DNA of 64,000 bases from positions 1,364,001-1,428,000 of the forward strand of contig NZ_CP015910.2 in assembly GCF_001676785.2 (NCBI RefSeq). Reading direction: 5' to 3'. Below, one piece after another: positions 3,651 through 14,536 of the stretch. Position 1 is the stretch's first letter. Each line of letters opens with the position of its first letter. The DNA is from Brachyspira hyodysenteriae ATCC 27164 (GTDB lineage Bacteria; Spirochaetota; Brachyspiria; Brachyspirales; Brachyspiraceae). Under the pieces are notes generated by a model. The model was not told the origin of the DNA. It did not search any database and saw only the letters and a program-made list of their open reading frames with translations. A program made the position numbers and the translations under genes.

Positions 3651-3680
3651 ATATAATAATTAGTTTTAAACCAAAAATAA

Positions 3681-3712
3681 AAAAGGTTATGATAAAAATC
3701 ATAACCTTTTTT
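3681..3712. terminator. bidirectional terminator between tsf and the TPR gene
   Basis: Perfect 12-pair stem AAAAGGTTATGA (3681-3692) and TCATAACCTTTT (3699-3710) with a six-base loop and flanking A and T runs, so it can work on both strands. It separates the rpsB-tsf unit from the convergent three-gene operon. Confidence 0.8.
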
Positions 3713-3743
3713 AATAGAGTATAATAAATGAGTTATTAATTCA

Positions 3744-5105
3744 TTAATCGCTGAATGATATAACACCTTCAATAATAGCCTCAAATCTTTCAGGTTCGAT
3801 GATCATTACTGTATCATCTACTTTCAAGTTAGGTGCAAAGTCTCCTATACTTATTAAGAAAGAGTGAGCACTCTTATATTGTCTTGCATATTCCATAAAC
3901 TGATCAACAGTTTCCTGTCTCATAGGATATCCTGAAGTATCTAATGCAAATGTACTCTTATATGACTGACCTTCAGAACCAAATTTCTTAATTGTTACAA
4001 AGAATACTAATGTATCAGATTTTTTAGTATGATCTGTAACTACATATCCGTTCAATGTCAATATTCTATAGAAGTATTTTTCTAGATATTCTATAATATC
4101 CATTTCCAATGCAGTTCTGAATGCATTATTAGCAATAATAGAACTATATGTTTTTAACTTCTGATCAACATCTAAATATATATTTCTTATAGACTTAATT
4201 ATTTCCCATTGTTTAACGGCAGCTTCAAACTGTTTATTTTTTACCAAAGTTTCAGCATATCTATATCTTTCATCTACAACTTTTTCACTTGCTATATTTT
4301 CTTTAGTTAAAACTTGTCCGTAATATTCTCTAGCTTTACTATAATTGCCAAGTTCATAATAAGAATTAGCAAGATTCAAAGATATTGCATCTTTATCTGA
4401 TATTTCATTACTTTCATAAGCTATTTCCAATTCTTTTATTGCATTTTGGAAATCTCTGCTTGAAGATAATATTTCACCTAAAAGTAAATGGTATTCAGGG
4501 TTTGTATTATCCAAAGCTATAGCTTTTTCTATTTGCTGCTGAGCTGCATGATATGAACGAATCTTATAAAAACAAAAAGATAGCATATATAATAATTGAG
4601 GATTACTATCATTTTGTGCTACAGCTAATGAAAAATATTTTTGAGCTTGTACCCATTCTCCATAATTATAACATACAAGTCCAGCTTTATATAATGAATC
4701 ATAATCCTGATCTCTAATTTTAGTTATCATATCATATTCATCTATAGCTTTTTTACTGTTTCCTGTTTGTTCATATATTTTTGCTAAGAATTCTCTTACA
4801 GCTAATTCACTTAATTCTTTAGTAAAATAAGCCCCATCTATCATATTCTGCAATGCTGCCATAGCCAATATATATTGCTGCTGTTTATAATACATATTAG
4901 CAGTCATCCATAATATATTAGCATCTTTTTTATATTTAGGGTCTAAAGTATTAATCTCTCTCATGGCTACATCATAATTTTGTTCATTATAAGCCTGAAC
5001 GATTTTTTTCAGTTTAATAGGGTATGATCCGCTCTTAATAACATACTGAGTGGCAAAACCTAATAAAACAATTAAGACTAATATTACAATTAATGAAGCT
5101 TCCAC
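3744..5105 (-). CDS. membrane-anchored TPR protein with a decayed Mrr-like nuclease domain
   Basis: The 453-residue protein starts at GTG (5103-5105), with AGGGA seven to eight bases upstream. Residues about 4-22 form one membrane helix. Residues about 35-310 are a string of TPR-like helix pairs (for example AMREINTLDPKYKKDANILW and NLANSYYELGNYSKAREYYG). The last 115 residues resemble the Mrr/PD-(D/E)xK fold: LEKYFYRILTLNGYVV at the first helix, a central strand, an alternating helix, and FLISIGDFAP where Mrr has the TTSGFT-type strand. The catalytic Q/E-x-K is replaced by FALDTS, so it is probably not a nuclease. Function is unknown; a scaffold or nucleic-acid-sensing role is possible. It is the last gene of a three-gene operon, 14 bases from its neighbour. 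Confidence 0.75.
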   Translation of the reverse strand: MEASLIVILVLIVLLGFATQYVIKSGSYPIKLKKIVQAYNEQNYDVAMREINTLDPKYKKDANILWMTANMYYKQQQYILAMAALQNMIDGAYFTKELSELAVREFLAKIYEQTGNSKKAIDEYDMITKIRDQDYDSLYKAGLVCYNYGEWVQAQKYFSLAVAQNDSNPQLLYMLSFCFYKIRSYHAAQQQIEKAIALDNTNPEYHLLLGEILSSSRDFQNAIKELEIAYESNEISDKDAISLNLANSYYELGNYSKAREYYGQVLTKENIASEKVVDERYRYAETLVKNKQFEAAVKQWEIIKSIRNIYLDVDQKLKTYSSIIANNAFRTALEMDIIEYLEKYFYRILTLNGYVVTDHTKKSDTLVFFVTIKKFGSEGQSYKSTFALDTSGYPMRQETVDQFMEYARQYKSAHSFLISIGDFAPNLKVDDTVMIIEPERFEAIIEGVISFSD

Positions 5106-5119
5106 GGTTCTTATCCCTT

Positions 5120-6160
5120 TTATTCATAATATATAACTGGACTTCCAGTTTCTTCTGATTCATTTAAAGCATCTTTGATTTTCTTCATCATAGTGTCTTT
5201 TACAACAAATACAGATATTTTATTTGACATATTATTAGAAAAATCAAATCCGCTAACAGCCATAGATACGTTAATATCTACAGATTCATCATTGTATTCA
5301 AAATTATAATTTTTTAACGCTTTAAAATATCTTTTTGTAGCTTTCCAAGCCTCTTCTTCATTTGCAAAAATCACAGAATATATGATGCCTTCATAAAGTA
5401 AGCATTGATTTTCACCTATTCTGGCATTTTTCTTTATGGCTTTTATAAGTTCATCTTCTAATTTTTTATAAGCAGCATTTCCATATTCTTCTCTTATAGA
5501 ACTGCCGTTTGATATTTTAAAAGCTATTATTCCTATAGCATGTTTATATCTTTGTGAAAATGCTATTATATTTTTTATAGTGCTTGAAAATATTTCATAT
5601 TCTGATTTATTTATTCTAACAATTTCATTATCATTATTTTCATAATTATCATCATTATTTTCTTGTACTATATTATCCTCTATAGTATATCCTAAATTAT
5701 ATAATATAGTTTTATACATAAATATCATAAGTTTTTTTAAATTATATGATAATTGTATTGATATAAAGAATAATCCTATAGCTAATATACTGCTGTAAAA
5801 TGTATAATCTCTCTTGTATAATAATTTTTGTATTTCAGGAACATAGCTTAATGATAATATTAATATTATAGAAGTAACGGCAAAGAAAAGTAAATTTTCT
5901 ATTGTTCTAGAAACTCCGGTATAACTTTTAGTAGGCTGCATTAATACTATTATAAAAGCATATAATATAGAAATTCCAATCCATATCCATACCCAAACAT
6001 CAAGAGCATATAATAAATATACAAAGAAATTTTGAGTATTAGGAGATATCAATAATATGTATATAGGTATAATTACAGCACTATATATTAAAGTACATAT
6101 CATAGCAGCAAAGAAGCCGTATATATATGATTTAGATAAGTTTATTTGTTTATCTTCCAT
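5120..6160 (-). CDS. polytopic membrane protein with a degenerate GGDEF-like domain
   Basis: I choose the ATG at 6160 (MEDKQINLSK) because AGGA lies six bases upstream. An in-frame ATG at 6184 has no ribosome site and overlaps the preceding gene. Residues about 10-165 hold four or more hydrophobic segments, then an Asn/Asp-rich linker (ENNDDNYENNDNE). The C-terminal 170 residues follow the GGDEF (diguanylate cyclase) order: KHAIGIIAFKISNGSSIREE at the metal-binding strand and ARIGENQCLLYEGIIYSVIF at the catalytic hairpin. The GGDEF motif itself is missing there, so cyclic-di-GMP synthesis is unlikely. It may be a sensor or structural protein. It lies 8 bases after the ATP-grasp gene and 14 before the TPR gene. 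Confidence 0.65.
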   Translation of the reverse strand: MEDKQINLSKSYIYGFFAAMICTLIYSAVIIPIYILLISPNTQNFFVYLLYALDVWVWIWIGISILYAFIIVLMQPTKSYTGVSRTIENLLFFAVTSIILILSLSYVPEIQKLLYKRDYTFYSSILAIGLFFISIQLSYNLKKLMIFMYKTILYNLGYTIEDNIVQENNDDNYENNDNEIVRINKSEYEIFSSTIKNIIAFSQRYKHAIGIIAFKISNGSSIREEYGNAAYKKLEDELIKAIKKNARIGENQCLLYEGIIYSVIFANEEEAWKATKRYFKALKNYNFEYNDESVDINVSMAVSGFDFSNNMSNKISVFVVKDTMMKKIKDALNESEETGSPVIYYE

Positions 6161-6168
6161 AATAGTTC

Positions 6169-8340
6169 CTAATTTTTGCGCCATATTGCATTATTAAATT
6201 TAAGTTTTGGCTGTCCAAAAACTTTCATCATTTTCTCTAATTCTAATTTATTAGAATAGATAGCATATTCAAGTCCTTTTCTGCCTTTACTTATAGCTGC
6301 AATAAAACTTTCTTCTGTTATAGAAACGGCATTAGCTCCCAACATGAAATATTTAAACACATCTGTTCCATATCTAGGAGATTCTGCAAGCCATAATAAT
6401 TGCATTTTATGACTATTATGCAAATTACAAGCCACTCTGTTAATAGTATCGGCAACTTTTTCCATACCTTTTAATGCATACTTATTATTATTTGAAAAAT
6501 ATACAGCATTTGCATGGGCAGAATTAATATTATGTATATCATTTTCATTAGATATTCCTTTAATTATTATAGGTATATCTATTTCTTTTATCATTTTTGA
6601 TAATTCTTTTTCACTTCTTACATATATTTTGTCATTTGAATTTATATTATAGCAATATGAGAAATCTATTCCTACAGCACAAGCACCATTCTTTTCAGAT
6701 TCTCTTAATCTTTGAAGTATAATATCCTGACTATTATTACCATCAATCATGATAATACCTCTTTTTTTTCCTTTAACAGTTTTTACTGACAATTCAAATA
6801 ACTCCTCATTATTAAAGTCATTCAATATAGCTAATATTTCGCAATTAGAAGCACTATCCATTACTGTTTCATAATATTCTCTTATATCCATTATACCATC
6901 TATTACTTCTGATAAATTATGTATAGTGTCTATTATCACAGGCTGAGAAACATGCATGTTAAATAAAGTTGTTTCTAATTTTACTTCTTTTTCCTCATGT
7001 ATAATACTTGGATTAAATGAATAATTAGAAAGTCCTGTTTTTTCATCTATATTATCTTTGAATAGGTAATTGACATTATGTTTTGATGCTAATTTTTCCT
7101 GAGCTATTCTTTTTATTTCTTCTACAGTTATGCTTTTTTCATCTGTAAGTCTAAAATGAACTGCATTTATAGCTTTATTTGCTATTGCCACAGCCTCATC
7201 TCTTGTTTTTCCTACAGTTATAACATTACCAGCTTTCTCTAAATTGTTTGTAGGTGTTACTAATATATCTCCTGCTTTGGTTTTTATGAATACTTCTTTC
7301 ACACCTTCTATTTTTTTAGCATTTTCTACACCATCAATAGATTCTATTATTCCTATACCTGGAAGAAATGCTTTTTCAACAGAAACTTTATCCCATTTAG
7401 GTTTTAAATCACTTGGAGGATTACCTAATGCTATTTCTATAGCATTTTTTATTAGATTTACACCTGTAGCAAGAGGGTAGGTATAAGCACTCATAAATCC
7501 GCCTGATAATCTTGCCGCAATTTCTCCAACCATAGCACCATTTTTTGTTACTTTTATATCACCTTTAGCAGCACCTATTTTTAAATTTAATGCTTTTATA
7601 CCAGCTTTCATAACATTGATTGCATCATCTATCTTTTCTTTTTCTAATGCAGAAGGCATAATATGACCTGTTTCTATAAAAAATGGTGGAAATTCTATTA
7701 TTCTATCAGCAACTCCTGTAACATGTATTTCATCATTATATATAAGCATATCGATAGATAATTCAGGTCCATCCATAAACTCTTCCATTATTACTTCTCC
7801 TGAAGGCGAAGCACTTTTTGCCCTATTAAATGCACTTAATATGTCACTTTCATTAGACACTTTCATTACACCGCGGGCTCCCATATTATCAGCAGGTTTA
7901 ACAACAACAGGAGTATTTAAATGTTTATATGCTTCCATTGCTTCTTCATAATTCCATACAGGAAAGAAATTCGGCTGAGGCACATTATTTTTTTTGAATC
8001 TTTCACGCATTCTTATCTTGTTTGAAGCAGCATAAGCATCTTCAAATCTATTTCCAGGAAGTCCTAAGGCATTAGCTACAGCAGCTACAGTAGTAGAAGC
8101 ATCTGTACCTACCGTAATAACACCATGTATTTCCATTTTCTGACTTAAATCTCTCGCAGCTCTTACACTTCCATCAACATCTCTTGTGGATACTACCATA
8201 GGATAATCTGCTATTTTCATACCATGTGCATCTTTATTATAATCGAATACTATTGTATAAAGTCCCATTTCCTGAGCTATTTGTATTGCTGGTACTTGAA
8301 GAAGTCCTGCACCTATTATTATTATACGTTTGCCTTTCAT
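6169..8340 (-). CDS. ATP-grasp enzyme fused to a degenerate FMN alpha-hydroxyacid-oxidase-like barrel
   Basis: This is a 723-residue, two-domain protein. Residues 1-400 form a biotin-carboxylase/PurT-like ATP-grasp enzyme: dinucleotide-type start IIIIGAGLLQVPAI, lysine loop VVVKPADNMGARGVMKV, EVIMEEFMDGPELS, and the metal-binding GEIAARLSGGF. Residues about 430-723 track the FMN-dependent lactate/glycolate oxidase family: KLETTLFNMHVSQPVIID, then IIIKGISNENDI, YFSNNNKYAL and YGTDVFKYFMLGANAVSI. In that family the third block reads SNHGxRQ, with the catalytic His, and the FMN-phosphate site reads DGGxRRG; here both are lost. The ATP-grasp half may ligate an unknown acid and amine; the barrel is probably non-catalytic. 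First gene of the three-gene operon; AAGGC is a weak ribosome site. Confidence 0.75.
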   Translation of the reverse strand: MKGKRIIIIGAGLLQVPAIQIAQEMGLYTIVFDYNKDAHGMKIADYPMVVSTRDVDGSVRAARDLSQKMEIHGVITVGTDASTTVAAVANALGLPGNRFEDAYAASNKIRMRERFKKNNVPQPNFFPVWNYEEAMEAYKHLNTPVVVKPADNMGARGVMKVSNESDILSAFNRAKSASPSGEVIMEEFMDGPELSIDMLIYNDEIHVTGVADRIIEFPPFFIETGHIMPSALEKEKIDDAINVMKAGIKALNLKIGAAKGDIKVTKNGAMVGEIAARLSGGFMSAYTYPLATGVNLIKNAIEIALGNPPSDLKPKWDKVSVEKAFLPGIGIIESIDGVENAKKIEGVKEVFIKTKAGDILVTPTNNLEKAGNVITVGKTRDEAVAIANKAINAVHFRLTDEKSITVEEIKRIAQEKLASKHNVNYLFKDNIDEKTGLSNYSFNPSIIHEEKEVKLETTLFNMHVSQPVIIDTIHNLSEVIDGIMDIREYYETVMDSASNCEILAILNDFNNEELFELSVKTVKGKKRGIIMIDGNNSQDIILQRLRESEKNGACAVGIDFSYCYNINSNDKIYVRSEKELSKMIKEIDIPIIIKGISNENDIHNINSAHANAVYFSNNNKYALKGMEKVADTINRVACNLHNSHKMQLLWLAESPRYGTDVFKYFMLGANAVSITEESFIAAISKGRKGLEYAIYSNKLELEKMMKVFGQPKLKFNNAIWRKN

Positions 8341-8788: not shown

Positions 8789-10213
8789 ATGAATAGTAAA
8801 AAACCAAATATAATATTAATCACAGCAGATCAAATGCGTGCTGATTCTATAGAATATATCAATGATGAGGTAAAGACTCCCGTATTAAATGAATTAGCAG
8901 AAAATGGAAGCGTATTTACCAATTCTTTTTGTACAAGTCCTGTATGTACTCCTTCAAGAGCTTCTATTTTTACAGGAAGATATCCCATGAATATAGGAGC
9001 TTGGAATATAGGAACAGAATTAAATGAAGATGAAGTAACTTTAGCAGACTATTTAAAAGAAGATAATTATTTCAATGTTGCTTCAGGTAAAATGCATTTC
9101 AGACCTCAGCTTAAAAATCTAAATTGGGAATTTGAGGATGTACCAAAAAGAGATAGAGTAAGAGAAAGAGATAAAACATATTATGGATTTGATATAACGC
9201 ATATAACAGAAGATGATAAGCAGGGAGAATATTTAGATTTTGCTAATAGTCATGGATGCAATTTAGAAATAGGTAAAGGAATAGATGGAATCAATCCTAT
9301 ACCAGAAGAATTGCATCAAACTTATTGGACAGCACAGAAAGCTATTGATGAGATAGATAATTTTAATTTTGATAAACCATTATTTATGTGGGTAAGTTTT
9401 GTAGATCCTCATCATCCATTTGATCCTATAAAGAAATATTATGATATTTATAAAGATATTAAACCAAAAGAACTTAATAGTAAATTAAAATTAGATAAAA
9501 AAAGACCAGAGCATTTGACTAAACAGGGTGATAGAGGATATTGGCCAGGAGGCGGAGAAGAACATCATTATAGTGAAGAAGAAATAAAAGAAATAAAAAA
9601 ACTTTATTATGGAATGATAAGTTTTATAGATTCTCAGATAGGAAGGATAATAGATAAATTAAAAGAGAAAAATGAATTTGATAATACAATAATAATATTT
9701 ACAAGTGATCATGGAGAATATTTAGGAGATTATGGTCTTTTGAAAAAGGGACCTTTTATGTATGATTGCTTGATAAAGGTACCATTATTATTTTATGGTA
9801 AAGGTATAGTAAAAAATAGAAGTGATGAAATAATAGAAAATATTGATATACTGCCAACAATATTAGATATGTTAGGAAAAGAAATTCCTTATGGTATACA
9901 AGGTCATAGCATAAAGAATATTTTAATAGGTGAAGATAAAAATAAAACATATAAAAAAGGTGCTGTAATTACTTATGATGCTCATGATAGGGGTATATTT
10001 ATAAAGACATACAGAACTAAACAATATAAACTTTCAATATTTTTAGATGAAGAATATGGAGAGTTTTATGATTTAGAAAAAGATCCTAATGAAGAAAATA
10101 ATTTATTTTTTAATAAAGAATATGATGAAATAAAGAATAAATTATTATTAGAGATGTGTCATAAGATGATAGAATGCAGCGATCCATTGAACAGAAGATA
10201 TGCTAGTTGGTAA
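8789..10213 (+). CDS. cytoplasmic sulfatase (alkaline phosphatase superfamily)
   Basis: 474 residues. The sulfatase signature CTPSRASIFTGR begins at Cys53, the residue converted to formylglycine in active sulfatases. The N-terminal metal site is ITADQMRAD, with Gln after Asp as in choline-sulfatase-like members. SDHGEYLGDYGLLKKG gives the C-terminal metal ligands and a conserved Lys. There is no signal peptide, so it should act in the cytoplasm, hydrolysing a sulfate ester after import. The ABC importer genes follow 44 bases downstream, which supports uptake of an intact sulfated compound. Phosphonate monoester hydrolases share this fold and also use formylglycine, so a phospho-ester substrate cannot be excluded. 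The maturation enzyme (anSME) is not in this window. Confidence 0.85.
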   Translation: MNSKKPNIILITADQMRADSIEYINDEVKTPVLNELAENGSVFTNSFCTSPVCTPSRASIFTGRYPMNIGAWNIGTELNEDEVTLADYLKEDNYFNVASGKMHFRPQLKNLNWEFEDVPKRDRVRERDKTYYGFDITHITEDDKQGEYLDFANSHGCNLEIGKGIDGINPIPEELHQTYWTAQKAIDEIDNFNFDKPLFMWVSFVDPHHPFDPIKKYYDIYKDIKPKELNSKLKLDKKRPEHLTKQGDRGYWPGGGEEHHYSEEEIKEIKKLYYGMISFIDSQIGRIIDKLKEKNEFDNTIIIFTSDHGEYLGDYGLLKKGPFMYDCLIKVPLLFYGKGIVKNRSDEIIENIDILPTILDMLGKEIPYGIQGHSIKNILIGEDKNKTYKKGAVITYDAHDRGIFIKTYRTKQYKLSIFLDEEYGEFYDLEKDPNEENNLFFNKEYDEIKNKLLLEMCHKMIECSDPLNRRYASW

Positions 10214-10257
10214 TTCTTTTATTTATAATAAATTAATAATTTTAAGGAGATATCAAA

Positions 10258-11298
10258 ATGAGAAAAACAGTGAAAATTATTACTTCATTAGTTTTAATTG
10301 CATGTTTGTTTTTATTAGCTTCATGTGCTAATAAGGGATCATCATCTTCTGGTGATGCAACAACATTGAAAGTGGCTGTAATGCCATTTTTAAACTCTGT
10401 ACCTATTGAGTATATGATTAATAACAAATTAGATGAAAAATATGGTTTTAAAATTGAAACTGTATATTTCCCATCAGGCGGTCCTATGAATGAAGCATTA
10501 GGTGCTGGTTTATGGGAAGTTGGTACATTAAGTGCTGCTTCTGTATATTCTTTGGCTAATTATAATGCTCATGTTGTAGCTGATATAGGACACTCTGAAG
10601 GCGGTATAGAAGTATTAGTTAATCCTGATTCTGATATATTAACAGTTAAGGGCGTTAATAAAGATTTTCCAGAAGTTTATGGAGATGCTGCTACTTTAAA
10701 AGGAAAAACTATAGCCGTACCTACTGGAACAATATCTCATTTAAATGTTATACATTGGCTTAGAGCTATAAATGTTGATCCTAATACAGTTAATATAGTT
10801 CATATGGAATTCCCTCAGGCATATCAAGCTTTAAAAGCTAAAAAAATAGATGCTGCTGCTTTGAATCCTCCAACTTCTTTCTCTGCTGAAGCTGATGGAA
10901 TGAAAATAGTTTCAAGTTTAACTACATTAAATATACCTCAGTACGATTCAATAATAGTATCTGATGAAGCTTTCAATAATAAAAAAGATACTATAGTGTT
11001 ATATATTAAAGCATTCTTAGAAGCATGCGATGCATTACAGGCTGATCCTAATATGGCTGCTCAAGAATTATTAAATTGGTATACAAAAAATGGATCTACT
11101 TCTACTTTAGAAGCTTGTCAGTCTGAAGTTCAAACTCGTCCTTTTGTTACAACAGAAGAAATCAAAAATATAAAAACAGGTGATTCTGTAAGAATAACAG
11201 CTGACTTCTTTGCAAGCCAGTCTTTAATAACAGAGGATAAATTAACTGTTGTTGACCAAAATGTAGATACTGAATTATTAGGTAAAGCATTAAATTGA
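10258..11298 (+). CDS. NitT/TauT-type ABC importer, substrate-binding lipoprotein
   Basis: 346 residues. The signal peptide ends in lipobox LASC (Cys23), so the protein is tethered to the outer face of the inner membrane. The mature part has the periplasmic-binding fold of the SsuA/TauA/ThiY class: VAVMPFLNSVPIEYMI, a glycine-rich GGPMNEALGAG loop and KGKTIAVPTGTISHLNVIHW. This class binds small anions or thiamin precursors such as sulfonates, nitrate or taurine (family knowledge). AAGGAG lies eight bases before the ATG. It is followed by two permease and two ATPase genes, making a complete importer. The ligand is probably the sulfated compound used by the upstream sulfatase; this is inference from gene order. 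Confidence 0.88.
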   Translation: MRKTVKIITSLVLIACLFLLASCANKGSSSSGDATTLKVAVMPFLNSVPIEYMINNKLDEKYGFKIETVYFPSGGPMNEALGAGLWEVGTLSAASVYSLANYNAHVVADIGHSEGGIEVLVNPDSDILTVKGVNKDFPEVYGDAATLKGKTIAVPTGTISHLNVIHWLRAINVDPNTVNIVHMEFPQAYQALKAKKIDAAALNPPTSFSAEADGMKIVSSLTTLNIPQYDSIIVSDEAFNNKKDTIVLYIKAFLEACDALQADPNMAAQELLNWYTKNGSTSTLEACQSEVQTRPFVTTEEIKNIKTGDSVRITADFFASQSLITEDKLTVVDQNVDTELLGKALN

Positions 11299-11340
11299 AC
11301 AATAATTACTTAAATTAATTAATAAAAAAGGACTATGTAT

Positions 11341-12171
11341 ATGGAAGAGAATATAGAAAATATTTCATTAAAAGAAAAAGAAAAAATCGTCATAGCCAAT
11401 AAAAAGAAAGAGAAAAGCAAATTTTTTATTATATCTGTAATATCTGTTGTAGTATTTCTTATAATATGGCAGTTAATAACAGATGTATTTAAATTATTTC
11501 CTTCATATTCTCTTCCAAGTCCTTATACAGTTTTTAAATCTTTTATTTATAAACTTACAAATAAAGCACCTGATAATGGTACATTGTTTCAGCATATATT
11601 AGCATCTTTGCAAGTGGCATTAACCGGTTATTTTTTAGGAGCTGCTATAGGAATACCTCTTGGAATATGTATGGCTTGGTTCAAAAAATTTAATTTAGTA
11701 GCAACTCCATTATTCGACCTTATAAGACCAATACCAACTATAGCATGGATACCTATGATGATATTATGGTTTGGAATAGGATTAGGAGCAAAATCAGCAA
11801 TAGTATTTATGTCAGCATTTGTACCTTGTGTAATTAATACTTATAGCGGAATAAAAGCAACTACTCAAGTACATTTATGGGTAGCACAAACTTTTGGAGC
11901 TTCAAGAAGACAAATGCTTAAAGAAGTTGCCATACCAACAGCTTTACCTTATATATTTACAGGACTTAGAGTATCTCTAGGTTCTTCTTGGACTTCTTTA
12001 TGTGCAGCTGAAATGCTTGCAGCAAGCAGAGGTTTAGGTTTTATGATACAGTTAAACAGACAGTTAGCAAGAGCAGATTTAATAATAGTGGGTATGCTTA
12101 CAATAGGAGCTGTAGGAGCAATTTTATCTGTTGGATTAGGCTATTTAGAAAAAAAATATGTTAAAAGATAA
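11341..12171 (+). CDS. ABC importer permease 1 (SsuC/TauC type)
   Basis: About 276 residues, with a charged Lys/Glu-rich cytoplasmic N-terminus and then about six membrane helices. The EAA loop that contacts the ATPase reads AQTFGASRRQMLKEVAIPTALPYIFTGL with the family's conserved Gly and Pro. I choose the second ATG (11341), because AGGA at 11329-11332 is eight bases from it and only two from the ATG at 11335. RPIPTIAWIPMMILWFG is typical of the SsuC/TauC/NrtB permeases. It is a distinct paralogue of the following permease, so a heterodimeric membrane domain is likely. Confidence 0.88.
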   Translation: MEENIENISLKEKEKIVIANKKKEKSKFFIISVISVVVFLIIWQLITDVFKLFPSYSLPSPYTVFKSFIYKLTNKAPDNGTLFQHILASLQVALTGYFLGAAIGIPLGICMAWFKKFNLVATPLFDLIRPIPTIAWIPMMILWFGIGLGAKSAIVFMSAFVPCVINTYSGIKATTQVHLWVAQTFGASRRQMLKEVAIPTALPYIFTGLRVSLGSSWTSLCAAEMLAASRGLGFMIQLNRQLARADLIIVGMLTIGAVGAILSVGLGYLEKKYVKR

Positions 12172-12184
12172 TTAGGGGTAATTT

Positions 12185-12985
12185 ATGAAAAATAAAGAAA
12201 AAAAGAGATTAAAATTATCTGATTTTGAAAAAACTATTTGGGCTGTTATATCTATAATAGGATTTTTAATTGTATGGCAATTATTAACAACTTATACTCC
12301 TATAAAAATTACCACACCTAAACCATTAGAGGTATTTAAATTTTTAGTATGGAGTTTAACTCATAATATAGGTCAGCAAACTATATTGGGACATATATTA
12401 ATAAGTATATTCAGAGTATTAACAGGTTTTGCTATAGGTGCTGTAACAGGTATAATATTAGGAATATCTATGGGTGTTAATAAATATGCAAGAGCAATAA
12501 TAAGACCATTCTTTGAAGTGTTCAGACAAATTCCTCCTATAGCTTGGATACCTATGGCTATACTTTGGTTTGGAATAGGCGAAGTACCTAAAGTATTTAT
12601 AATATTTATTGGTACTTTTGTTAATGTTACTTTGAATGCTTATGCAGGAAGTTCTCAGGTTAATCCTACTTTAATAGGAGCTGCTAAAATGCTTGGCTCT
12701 AATGAGAGAGATATATTTTTGCATGTTATACTTCCGGCTTCTGTACCTCAAATATTCAATGGTATGCAGGTAGGTTTTTCAGTAAGCTGGATGGGTGTAT
12801 TAGCAGCTGAAATGGTTAGTTCTTTTGCTGGTGTAGGTTGGGTTATAATAAGAGGTTCTGATACGGCAAATATACCTCAAGTTTTAGCTGGTATGATAGC
12901 TATAGGTATAGTTGGTTTATTATTATCTTCTTTAATGAGATATATAGAAAAGAGATTAACTATTTGGAATTCTACTGGTATATAA
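12185..12985 (+). CDS. ABC importer permease 2 (SsuC/TauC type)
   Basis: 266 residues with about six membrane helices. It has the same FRQIPPIAWIPMAILWFG and EAA-loop (GAAKMLGSNERDIFLHVILP) patterns as the preceding permease, with clearly different residues elsewhere. AGGGG precedes the ATG, 13 bases after the previous stop. Two different permeases side by side suggest a pseudo-dimeric channel. This matches the two different ATPases downstream. Confidence 0.88.
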   Translation: MKNKEKKRLKLSDFEKTIWAVISIIGFLIVWQLLTTYTPIKITTPKPLEVFKFLVWSLTHNIGQQTILGHILISIFRVLTGFAIGAVTGIILGISMGVNKYARAIIRPFFEVFRQIPPIAWIPMAILWFGIGEVPKVFIIFIGTFVNVTLNAYAGSSQVNPTLIGAAKMLGSNERDIFLHVILPASVPQIFNGMQVGFSVSWMGVLAAEMVSSFAGVGWVIIRGSDTANIPQVLAGMIAIGIVGLLLSSLMRYIEKRLTIWNSTGI

Positions 12986-13006
12986 TAATTAATTTGAGGC
13001 GTCAAT

Positions 13007-13765
13007 ATGGAAAATAAAACTATTATAAAAATGAATCATGTTAATAAAGTCTTTTTCAGTGAGCATGGATATAAAGAAGTTATAAAAGATATAAGTCTTG
13101 AAGTGAAGGAAAATGAATTTGTTGTATTATTCGGACCTGGTCAATGCGGAAAGACAACATTGATAAATTTAATAGCAGGACTTGAAACAGCAGAAAATTC
13201 TGATATAGAAGTTAATGGTAAAAAGGTAACTGAACCTCATCCGGAAAGGGGAGTTGTATATCAAACTACTGCTTTATTTCCTTTTTTGACTGTTATGGAA
13301 AATGTAGAGTTTGGGCCTAGAGCAAGGGGAATACCAAAGAAAGAGAGAAGAGATAAAGCAAAATATTATATAGATTTAGTAGGACTTAATGGATTTGAAA
13401 ATAGTTATCCGAATCAATTATCCGGAGGTATGAGGCAGAGGGTAGGAATAGCCAGAGCTTATTGCAATGAACCTGTTGTTATGCTTCTTGATGAGCCTTT
13501 CGGACATTTGGATGCACAAACTAGGTATATGATGGAAGAAGAAATTGAAAAGATTTGGCAGAAAGAAAAAAGAACTGTTGTATTTGTTACTAACAATATA
13601 GAAGAAGCTGTTTATTTGGGTGACAGAATAATACTTCTTACAAACTGTCCTACGGTTGTAAAAAAAGAATATATTATAGATTTGCCTAGACCTAGAAGAT
13701 TAACTGATCCTAATTTCCTTAAAATTAGAAATGAAATAAATGATAATATGGATATAACTTTATAA
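13007..13765 (+). CDS. ABC importer ATPase 1 (canonical signature, H-loop lost)
   Basis: 252 residues, SsuB/TauB/NrtD class. Walker A is GPGQCGKTT, Walker B is VVMLLDEP with the catalytic Glu, and the signature is canonical LSGGMRQR. The switch (H-loop) histidine is replaced by Asn: FVTNNIEEAV where the family has TH(D/N). This subunit can supply a good signature to its partner but has an impaired site of its own. The ribosome site is GAGG. It lies 18 bases before the second ATPase gene. Confidence 0.9.
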   Translation: MENKTIIKMNHVNKVFFSEHGYKEVIKDISLEVKENEFVVLFGPGQCGKTTLINLIAGLETAENSDIEVNGKKVTEPHPERGVVYQTTALFPFLTVMENVEFGPRARGIPKKERRDKAKYYIDLVGLNGFENSYPNQLSGGMRQRVGIARAYCNEPVVMLLDEPFGHLDAQTRYMMEEEIEKIWQKEKRTVVFVTNNIEEAVYLGDRIILLTNCPTVVKKEYIIDLPRPRRLTDPNFLKIRNEINDNMDITL

Positions 13766-13783
13766 CATAAAAAGGATATATTT

Positions 13784-14536
13784 ATGACAAATGATACTAG
13801 AGAAGTAAAAGTAAAAGTTTCAAGATTAACAAAAAAATTCGGTGATTTATTGGTTTTAAATGATATATCATTTAATGTTATGAAAGGTGAGTTTTTATGC
13901 ATAGTAGGACCTACTGGCTGCGGTAAAACTACATTTTTAAATAGCCTTACAAAGTTATACAAACCAACTTACGGAGCCATACAGATAGACGGCGAACATG
14001 TTGACTTAAAAAAACATGATATAGCATATATATTTCAGGAATATTCCACTATGCCTTGGCTTAAAGTAGAGGAGAATGTTAAGTTCGGATTAAAAATAAA
14101 AAAACTTCCTCAAGATGTTATCGAAGAGAGGGCAGACAGAGTAATAAAAATGGTTGGGCTTGAGAAGTTTAAAAACTTTTATCCAAGCGAGCTTTCTGCT
14201 AGTATGCTTCAAAGGGTAGTTATAGCTAAGGCATTTGCTGTGGAGCCTGAATTGCTTTTGATGGATGAACCTTATGGGCAATTAGATGTTTCTTTGAGAT
14301 TTAAATTAGAAGATGAGCTTTTAAATATATGGAAAACTTTGGGTACTACAATTATATTTATTACTCATAATATAGAAGAAGCTGTTTATTTAGGTGAAAG
14401 AGTTTTAGTGTTGACTAATAAGCCAACTTCTATAAAAAAAGAAATACATATAGATTTGGAACATCCTAGAAATATAGCAGATCCTAAATTTGTTGAATAT
14501 AGAGAAGAAATAACAGAACTTATAAAATGGTGGTAA
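13784..14536 (+). CDS. ABC importer ATPase 2 (degenerate signature, H-loop intact)
   Basis: 250 residues of the same class. Walker A GPTGCGKTT, Walker B LLLMDEP and the switch histidine FITHNIEEAV are intact. The signature is degenerate: LSASMLQR instead of LSGGQ/MxQR. It mirrors ATPase 1, so a heterodimer would have one complete ATP site (this Walker A and His with the partner's LSGGM) and one crippled site. Last gene of the operon. A weak hairpin follows, and the convergent LacI-type regulator begins 67 bases beyond the stop. Confidence 0.9.
   Translation: MTNDTREVKVKVSRLTKKFGDLLVLNDISFNVMKGEFLCIVGPTGCGKTTFLNSLTKLYKPTYGAIQIDGEHVDLKKHDIAYIFQEYSTMPWLKVEENVKFGLKIKKLPQDVIEERADRVIKMVGLEKFKNFYPSELSASMLQRVVIAKAFAVEPELLLMDEPYGQLDVSLRFKLEDELLNIWKTLGTTIIFITHNIEEAVYLGERVLVLTNKPTSIKKEIHIDLEHPRNIADPKFVEYREEITELIKWW

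Follow-up and report, generated by a model that had tools for sequence, protein, structure and literature searches.

Three adjacent genes of a Brachyspira spirochaete, here called A, B and C, each encode a protein carrying a recognisable enzyme fold without its catalytic residues, and these folds died at different times: those of B and C became inactive much earlier, and the flavin half of A followed later, in this lineage only. The genes lie on the minus strand of the window, by which we mean the whole 64,000-nucleotide stretch of DNA analysed, in a genome of 3.07 Mb. Together they encode an ATP-grasp ligase-type protein, a membrane protein with a pseudo-cyclase domain and a TPR protein. In the reading we prefer, tentatively and at a probability of about 0.4, the pseudo-cyclase would sense c-di-GMP, and the ligase would be tethered to it and to the TPR protein as a scaffold. 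The features are as follows, with residues of B numbered on its 354-aa open reading frame.

6169..8340, minus strand: gene A, 723 aa, ATP-grasp ligase plus pseudo FMN-dependent dehydrogenase barrel (LAL_C2 2e-18, FMN_dh 1.6e-16)
7141..8340, minus strand: ligase half of A, residues 1-400 (ATP-grasp/LAL_C2), with intact motifs
6472..6498, minus strand: catalytic SNHGGR site of A changed to SNNNKY (residues 616-621), from the alignment
6361..6390, minus strand: FMN phosphate loop DGGxRSG of A changed to AESPRYG (residues 652-658), from the alignment
5120..6160, minus strand: gene B, 346 aa from ATG 6160, membrane segment plus GGDEF fold
5411..5422, minus strand: R255-I-G-E258 of B at the position of the RxxD primary I-site, invariant in ten B-like proteins
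5378..5392, minus strand: EGIIY of B (residues 265-269) replacing GGDEF/GGEEF, from the alignment
5330..5332, minus strand: R285 of B at the position of the second I-site Arg, 90% conserved in ten B-like proteins
3744..5105, minus strand: gene C, 453 aa with a GTG start, hydrophobic helix, TPRs and Mrr_cat-like domain
3678..3713, minus strand: terminator-like hairpin 3' of gene C, 16 pairs followed by a T-rich run

The intergenic gaps are 8 bases between A and B and 14 bases between B and C when the start of B is taken as ATG 6160. This start is preceded by AGGA and has the same position in the closest homologue; the mechanically called open reading frame of B begins at 6184, yields 354 aa and overlaps A by 16 bases. 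Since the terminator-like hairpin lies 3' of C, we regard A-B-C as the transcription unit. Elsewhere in the window, the stretch 8789-14536 reads by sequence as a sulfatase-like gene followed by an ABC transporter set of the nitrate/taurine type: one gene for a substrate-binding protein, two for permeases and two for ATPases.

The three genes were kept together in 25 of the 26 genomes of the genus, 20 loci being read directly and the others judged by coordinates; in the 26th genome a contig end truncates A. Such genus-wide conservation excludes chance. The A-B-C order was also kept in both sister genera and in one sister family of the order. All three genes, in the order A-B-C and with a short A, were present in a genome from a distant family (G035), and B-C was found at a contig start in genome G066. 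The original prediction of an operon of three genes with these gaps thus held, and so did the conservation of the trio across species, which it had proposed to check.

The N-terminal half of A matches ATP-grasp_4 at 3.4e-14 (53.2 bits, cut-off 27) and LAL_C2 at 2e-18 (66.8 bits, cut-off 29.4) in Pfam. At the 14 ligase motif positions that were checked, which cover the conserved Lys, Glu and E-x-x-x-R residues, 122-123 of the 124 aligned rows carry the same residue, the window protein included; the remaining rows had gaps there, so that no substitution was seen at any of them. With its motifs intact, this half is seemingly a working ligase. Matches to A at 1e-60 or better occurred in 222 of the 296 genomes of the phylum. 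Further ATP-grasp genes were observed in the genus: one genome carries four in a row (G011:C90), and another lies on a small contig of the window's own genome (G000:C2:25589-26527).

The C-terminal half of A forms a barrel at about residues 440-715 and matches FMN_dh at 1.6e-16 over residues 578-714 (60.8 bits, cut-off 24.9). Besides the loss of the catalytic site listed above, the five checked positions of the phosphate loop read AESRG and TE stands in place of the closing GR; the Lys of the I-K-G motif was retained across the genus. Orthologues elsewhere present a different picture. Among 101 A proteins whose flavin half was aligned, 69 had the active His (SNHGGR or SSHGGR) and 77 a Cys4 cluster (CxxCxxC...C, placed between the halves); some loci were entered twice in this set, two genome collections overlapping. 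A typical intact orthologue matches FMN_dh at 7.6e-70. The fused A was also found in bins labelled Coatesbacteria, Nitrospinota and Lindowbacteria, and Treponema-like genomes carry a short-form A with another terminal domain of about 130 residues in place of the flavin half. ATP-grasp, Cys4 cluster and flavin oxidase together make up what is apparently an undescribed spirochaete enzyme family. In a literature search with most subscription journals outside reach, we found nothing on point for ATP-grasp/FMN fusions, for spiro-SPASM or for Brachyspira with ATP-grasp, and almost nothing for Brachyspira with c-di-GMP.

Three stages of loss can be followed among loci from the taxonomic order to which the window belongs. 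Locus L145 (genome G150) kept His, loops and Cys4 cluster throughout and matches FMN_dh at 3.8e-61. Loci L030 (G162) and L028 (G146) have SNKGGR, with the Cys4 cluster and the remaining motifs intact. In both Brachyspiraceae genera checked the site reads SNNNKY or similar and the Cys4 cluster is absent. The series in A accordingly runs from an intact enzyme, through a change of His to Lys with the rest kept, to the loss of all motifs. A tree of the flavin half joins the window clade to L028, their stem measuring 1.26 changes per column. A second clade of A (L032, L033, L035 and L046) has SNRGGR for SNHGGR and kept its Cys4 cluster and FMN loops; the three members placed in the tree have a common stem of 1.18. 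The separate position of this clade on its own stem means that His was lost at least twice.

In the structure model, B has four long N-terminal helices, read as a membrane segment, followed by a GGDEF fold at about residues 190-354. Pfam gave no match for B itself, and the match to the NCBIfam GGDEF model (5e-4) was below that model's cut-off. In a fold search the predicted structure of B aligned with PleD at Z 19.4 (rmsd 1.9-2.4 Å over 154-156 residues), the alignment from which it was modelled containing true GGDEF rows that possibly favoured this fold. The signature motif is replaced by EGIIY and the metal-binding DxD of GGDEF domains by KxS, and cyclase activity of B is therefore unexpected.

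Gene C consists of an N-terminal hydrophobic helix, a TPR superhelix at about residues 28-325 and an alpha/beta domain at about 327-453. Searched with the whole model, the fold library returned only TPR proteins (Z up to 23), the last domain not being represented; in Pfam, likewise, the TPRs were matched and the terminal domain of the window protein was not. Homologues of this domain matched Mrr_cat at 3e-16 (L138), 1.9e-8 (L141), 7.7e-8 (L152) and 0.0028 (L030). The catalytic D...[QE]xK was absent from C and from all aligned homologues. We rejected C as a collar protein of the FlaC/FlcA type, the FlcA_CTERM match spanning the TPRs only. The C gene of L028 (G146:C29:14658-15095), from a metagenome-derived genome, contains one in-frame TAG. 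After the C homologue of L138 lie a SpoIIE phosphatase gene and a STAS gene.

Because the domain of C lacks Q/E-x-K in every homologue aligned, its inactivation long predates that of the flavin half in A. A simultaneous decay of the three enzymes was ruled out, since L145 pairs an inactive B and C with an intact flavin half. The anatomy given in the original prediction was confirmed on each count: an FMN-oxidase-like barrel without His and FMN loop, a GGDEF-like domain without GGDEF, an Mrr-like domain without Q/E-x-K, and an intact ATP-grasp half. Its grouping of three decayed folds into one complex fared less well. It had held that orthologues with intact active sites would speak against it, and for A such orthologues exist, among them that of L145; all three folds are dead in the window, but the losses came stepwise, with B and C first.

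Within the genus, dN/dS of the flavin half was mostly about 0.06-0.28, reaching 0.44 in the most distant comparisons, and that of the ligase half was 0.03-0.08 within most of the genus. The ratio (1-C)/(1-N) was 2.7-4.7 in Brachyspira A versus 1.2-2.5 in intact orthologues; relative to the ligase half, the flavin half evolved 2-4 times faster than in intact orthologues. No frameshift or stop was found in the fully covered genus copies of A, and length was constant in all. These data demonstrate that constraint on the Brachyspira flavin half is relaxed and not absent, and that the half is under purifying selection. In six genus genomes (L015-L020) the flavin half of A is about 70% identical to that of the window and the ligase half about 96%; in four of these B is about 92% identical to the window's. 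Either local fast divergence or recombination would produce this pattern.

The alternative that survives best, which we consider unlikely yet a serious contender, is that the Brachyspira flavin half is vestigial: its reaction would have been taken over or become needless, the barrel would be retained for folding of the ligase, and B and C would be ordinary accessories. The accelerated evolution of the half, the existence of a short-form A wholly without it and the independent loss of His in the SNRGGR clade all agree with this, as does a stand-alone FMN_dh protein in the same genome (L153:6548-7600; G000 C1:769548-770600), which has an intact SNHGGR and a Cys-rich N-terminus. A merely vestigial half is harder to reconcile with the open reading frames and constant length of the genus copies and with dN/dS values well below 1.

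For B, the question is what an inactive cyclase fold may do. PleD carries an inhibitory (I) site, and R285 of B aligns with what we take to be R390 of PleD. Five columns, F199, G218, N226, R255 and E258, are invariant across ten divergent B-like proteins. At the position of the I-site B reads RxxE for RxxD, in a loop longer by one residue and with E258 near the place of the Asp. Given this substitution and the longer loop, c-di-GMP binding by B is not assured. Three GGDEF domains and one PilZ domain score over cut-off in the window's genome, whereas a search there for EAL domains gave none; from this we conclude that c-di-GMP is likely made. Judged from these residues, B is most likely a candidate c-di-GMP receptor. 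The further proposal of the original prediction, that the dead folds serve as binding modules, is on the same grounds plausible for B only, where I-site residues survive.

It is rather unlikely that the GGDEF fold of B is instead a platform for dimerisation or partners, or a binder of another nucleotide, with Arg, Glu and Arg in structural roles. The Glu for Asp, the extra loop residue and the position of the invariant F199, G218 and N226 outside the I-site would fit such a platform. The residues that were kept are nevertheless those expected of an I-site, with the active-site residues lost, and degenerate GGDEF receptors sense in this way, PelD being an I-site-based receptor of c-di-GMP (PMC7112168). 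That the domain calls are wrong, and A, B and C unrelated to FMN_dh, GGDEF and Mrr, is very improbable: B and the last domain of the window's C have no Pfam match, but FMN_dh is matched at high significance by A and far more strongly by its same-order orthologue L145, the predicted fold of B is of the PleD type, and a homologue of C matches Mrr_cat at 3e-16.

A clue to the pathway of A was sought in gene neighbourhoods. The short-form A genes of Treponema-like genomes (L068, L070, L073, L075 and L079) lie in an operon of fixed order, possibly for flagellar modification: spiroSPASM, a 310-residue protein, a cytidylyltransferase, a PseG-like/methyltransferase fusion, A, an amidase, a small protein and FlaA. 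Across the phylum, 214 genomes contained both A and spiroSPASM, 8 contained A only (all incomplete drafts), 26 spiroSPASM only and 48 neither (Fisher p = 6.5e-28, kinship ignored). The window's genome has a spiroSPASM gene, away from other pathway genes, and an SpsF-like cytidylyltransferase. A sugar pathway of the PseG type was rejected for this genome, the sole match being MurG. With no PseG-like gene and with spiroSPASM apart, the pathway link for Brachyspira is indirect. Long-form A genes have varied neighbourhoods; in Brevinematales-type genomes (L063-L067) A adjoins genes for STAS, TPR and SpoIIE-type phosphatase proteins. Flagellar or envelope modification is thus a lead to the pathway of A, and by analogy with the short-form operon of other spirochaetes, with its spiro-SPASM, cytidylyltransferase and FlaA genes, the substrate of A may be related to the envelope or the flagellum.

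Under the preferred reading of a tethered ligase, the products of A-B-C would form a small module associated with the membrane. At its centre A, as an active ATP-grasp ligase, would make an ATP-dependent amide-type bond on its substrate. The C-half of ancestral A would have been an enzyme of the flavin alpha-hydroxy-acid oxidase type with a Cys4 cluster; in Brachyspira and the sister genus this barrel would no longer be catalytic and would be retained for a structural or regulatory role. B would be an inner-membrane protein whose cytoplasmic GGDEF fold senses c-di-GMP and does not synthesise it. C would act as a TPR scaffold, anchored in the membrane and carrying a dead nuclease fold, that connects B either with A or with some other partner. 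Gene order alone suggests that the three proteins are in physical contact. A more specific version, in which c-di-GMP acts through the pseudo-cyclase to control a tethered ligase that modifies a component of the envelope or flagellum, the dead flavin barrel of the ligase serving as regulatory domain and the output being particular to spirochaetes, strikes us as doubtful.

In this operon the successive losses within a single fused enzyme can be dated, the gene still being under selection and its partners constant. The comparison of close relatives provides an approach to what a pseudoenzyme domain does. It also supplies a candidate c-di-GMP receptor in Brachyspira, a genus of gut pathogens.

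Compared with known systems, the terminal domain of C is part of a family in spirochaetes with other members that match the Mrr-type restriction endonucleases (PF04471, Mrr_cat). It differs from these in lacking Q/E-x-K and in its placement behind a membrane anchor and TPRs, and its gene does not adjoin restriction genes. B resembles PelD in combining a membrane segment with a GGDEF fold that has no active site and retains the Arg, the acidic residue and the second Arg of the I-site. It differs from PelD in having RxxE instead of RxxD; no GAF domain was seen between its membrane segment and GGDEF fold, and its gene is not within a polysaccharide operon. The C-half of A is homologous to the FMN-dependent alpha-hydroxy-acid dehydrogenases (PF01070): A orthologues from other spirochaetes and from a few further phyla retain all motifs of that family, whereas the catalytic His, FMN phosphate loop and Cys4 cluster are gone in Brachyspira and the sister genus. 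The N-half is built like the L-amino acid ligases (PF13535 plus PF18603), with ATP-grasp and LAL_C2 both over cut-off; A scores far below the cut-offs of the named ligase equivalogs in NCBIfam. The E-x-x-x-R motif and the Lys residues of these ligases are retained in all A orthologues. From the L-amino acid ligases A is set apart by its additional C-terminal half of the flavin type.
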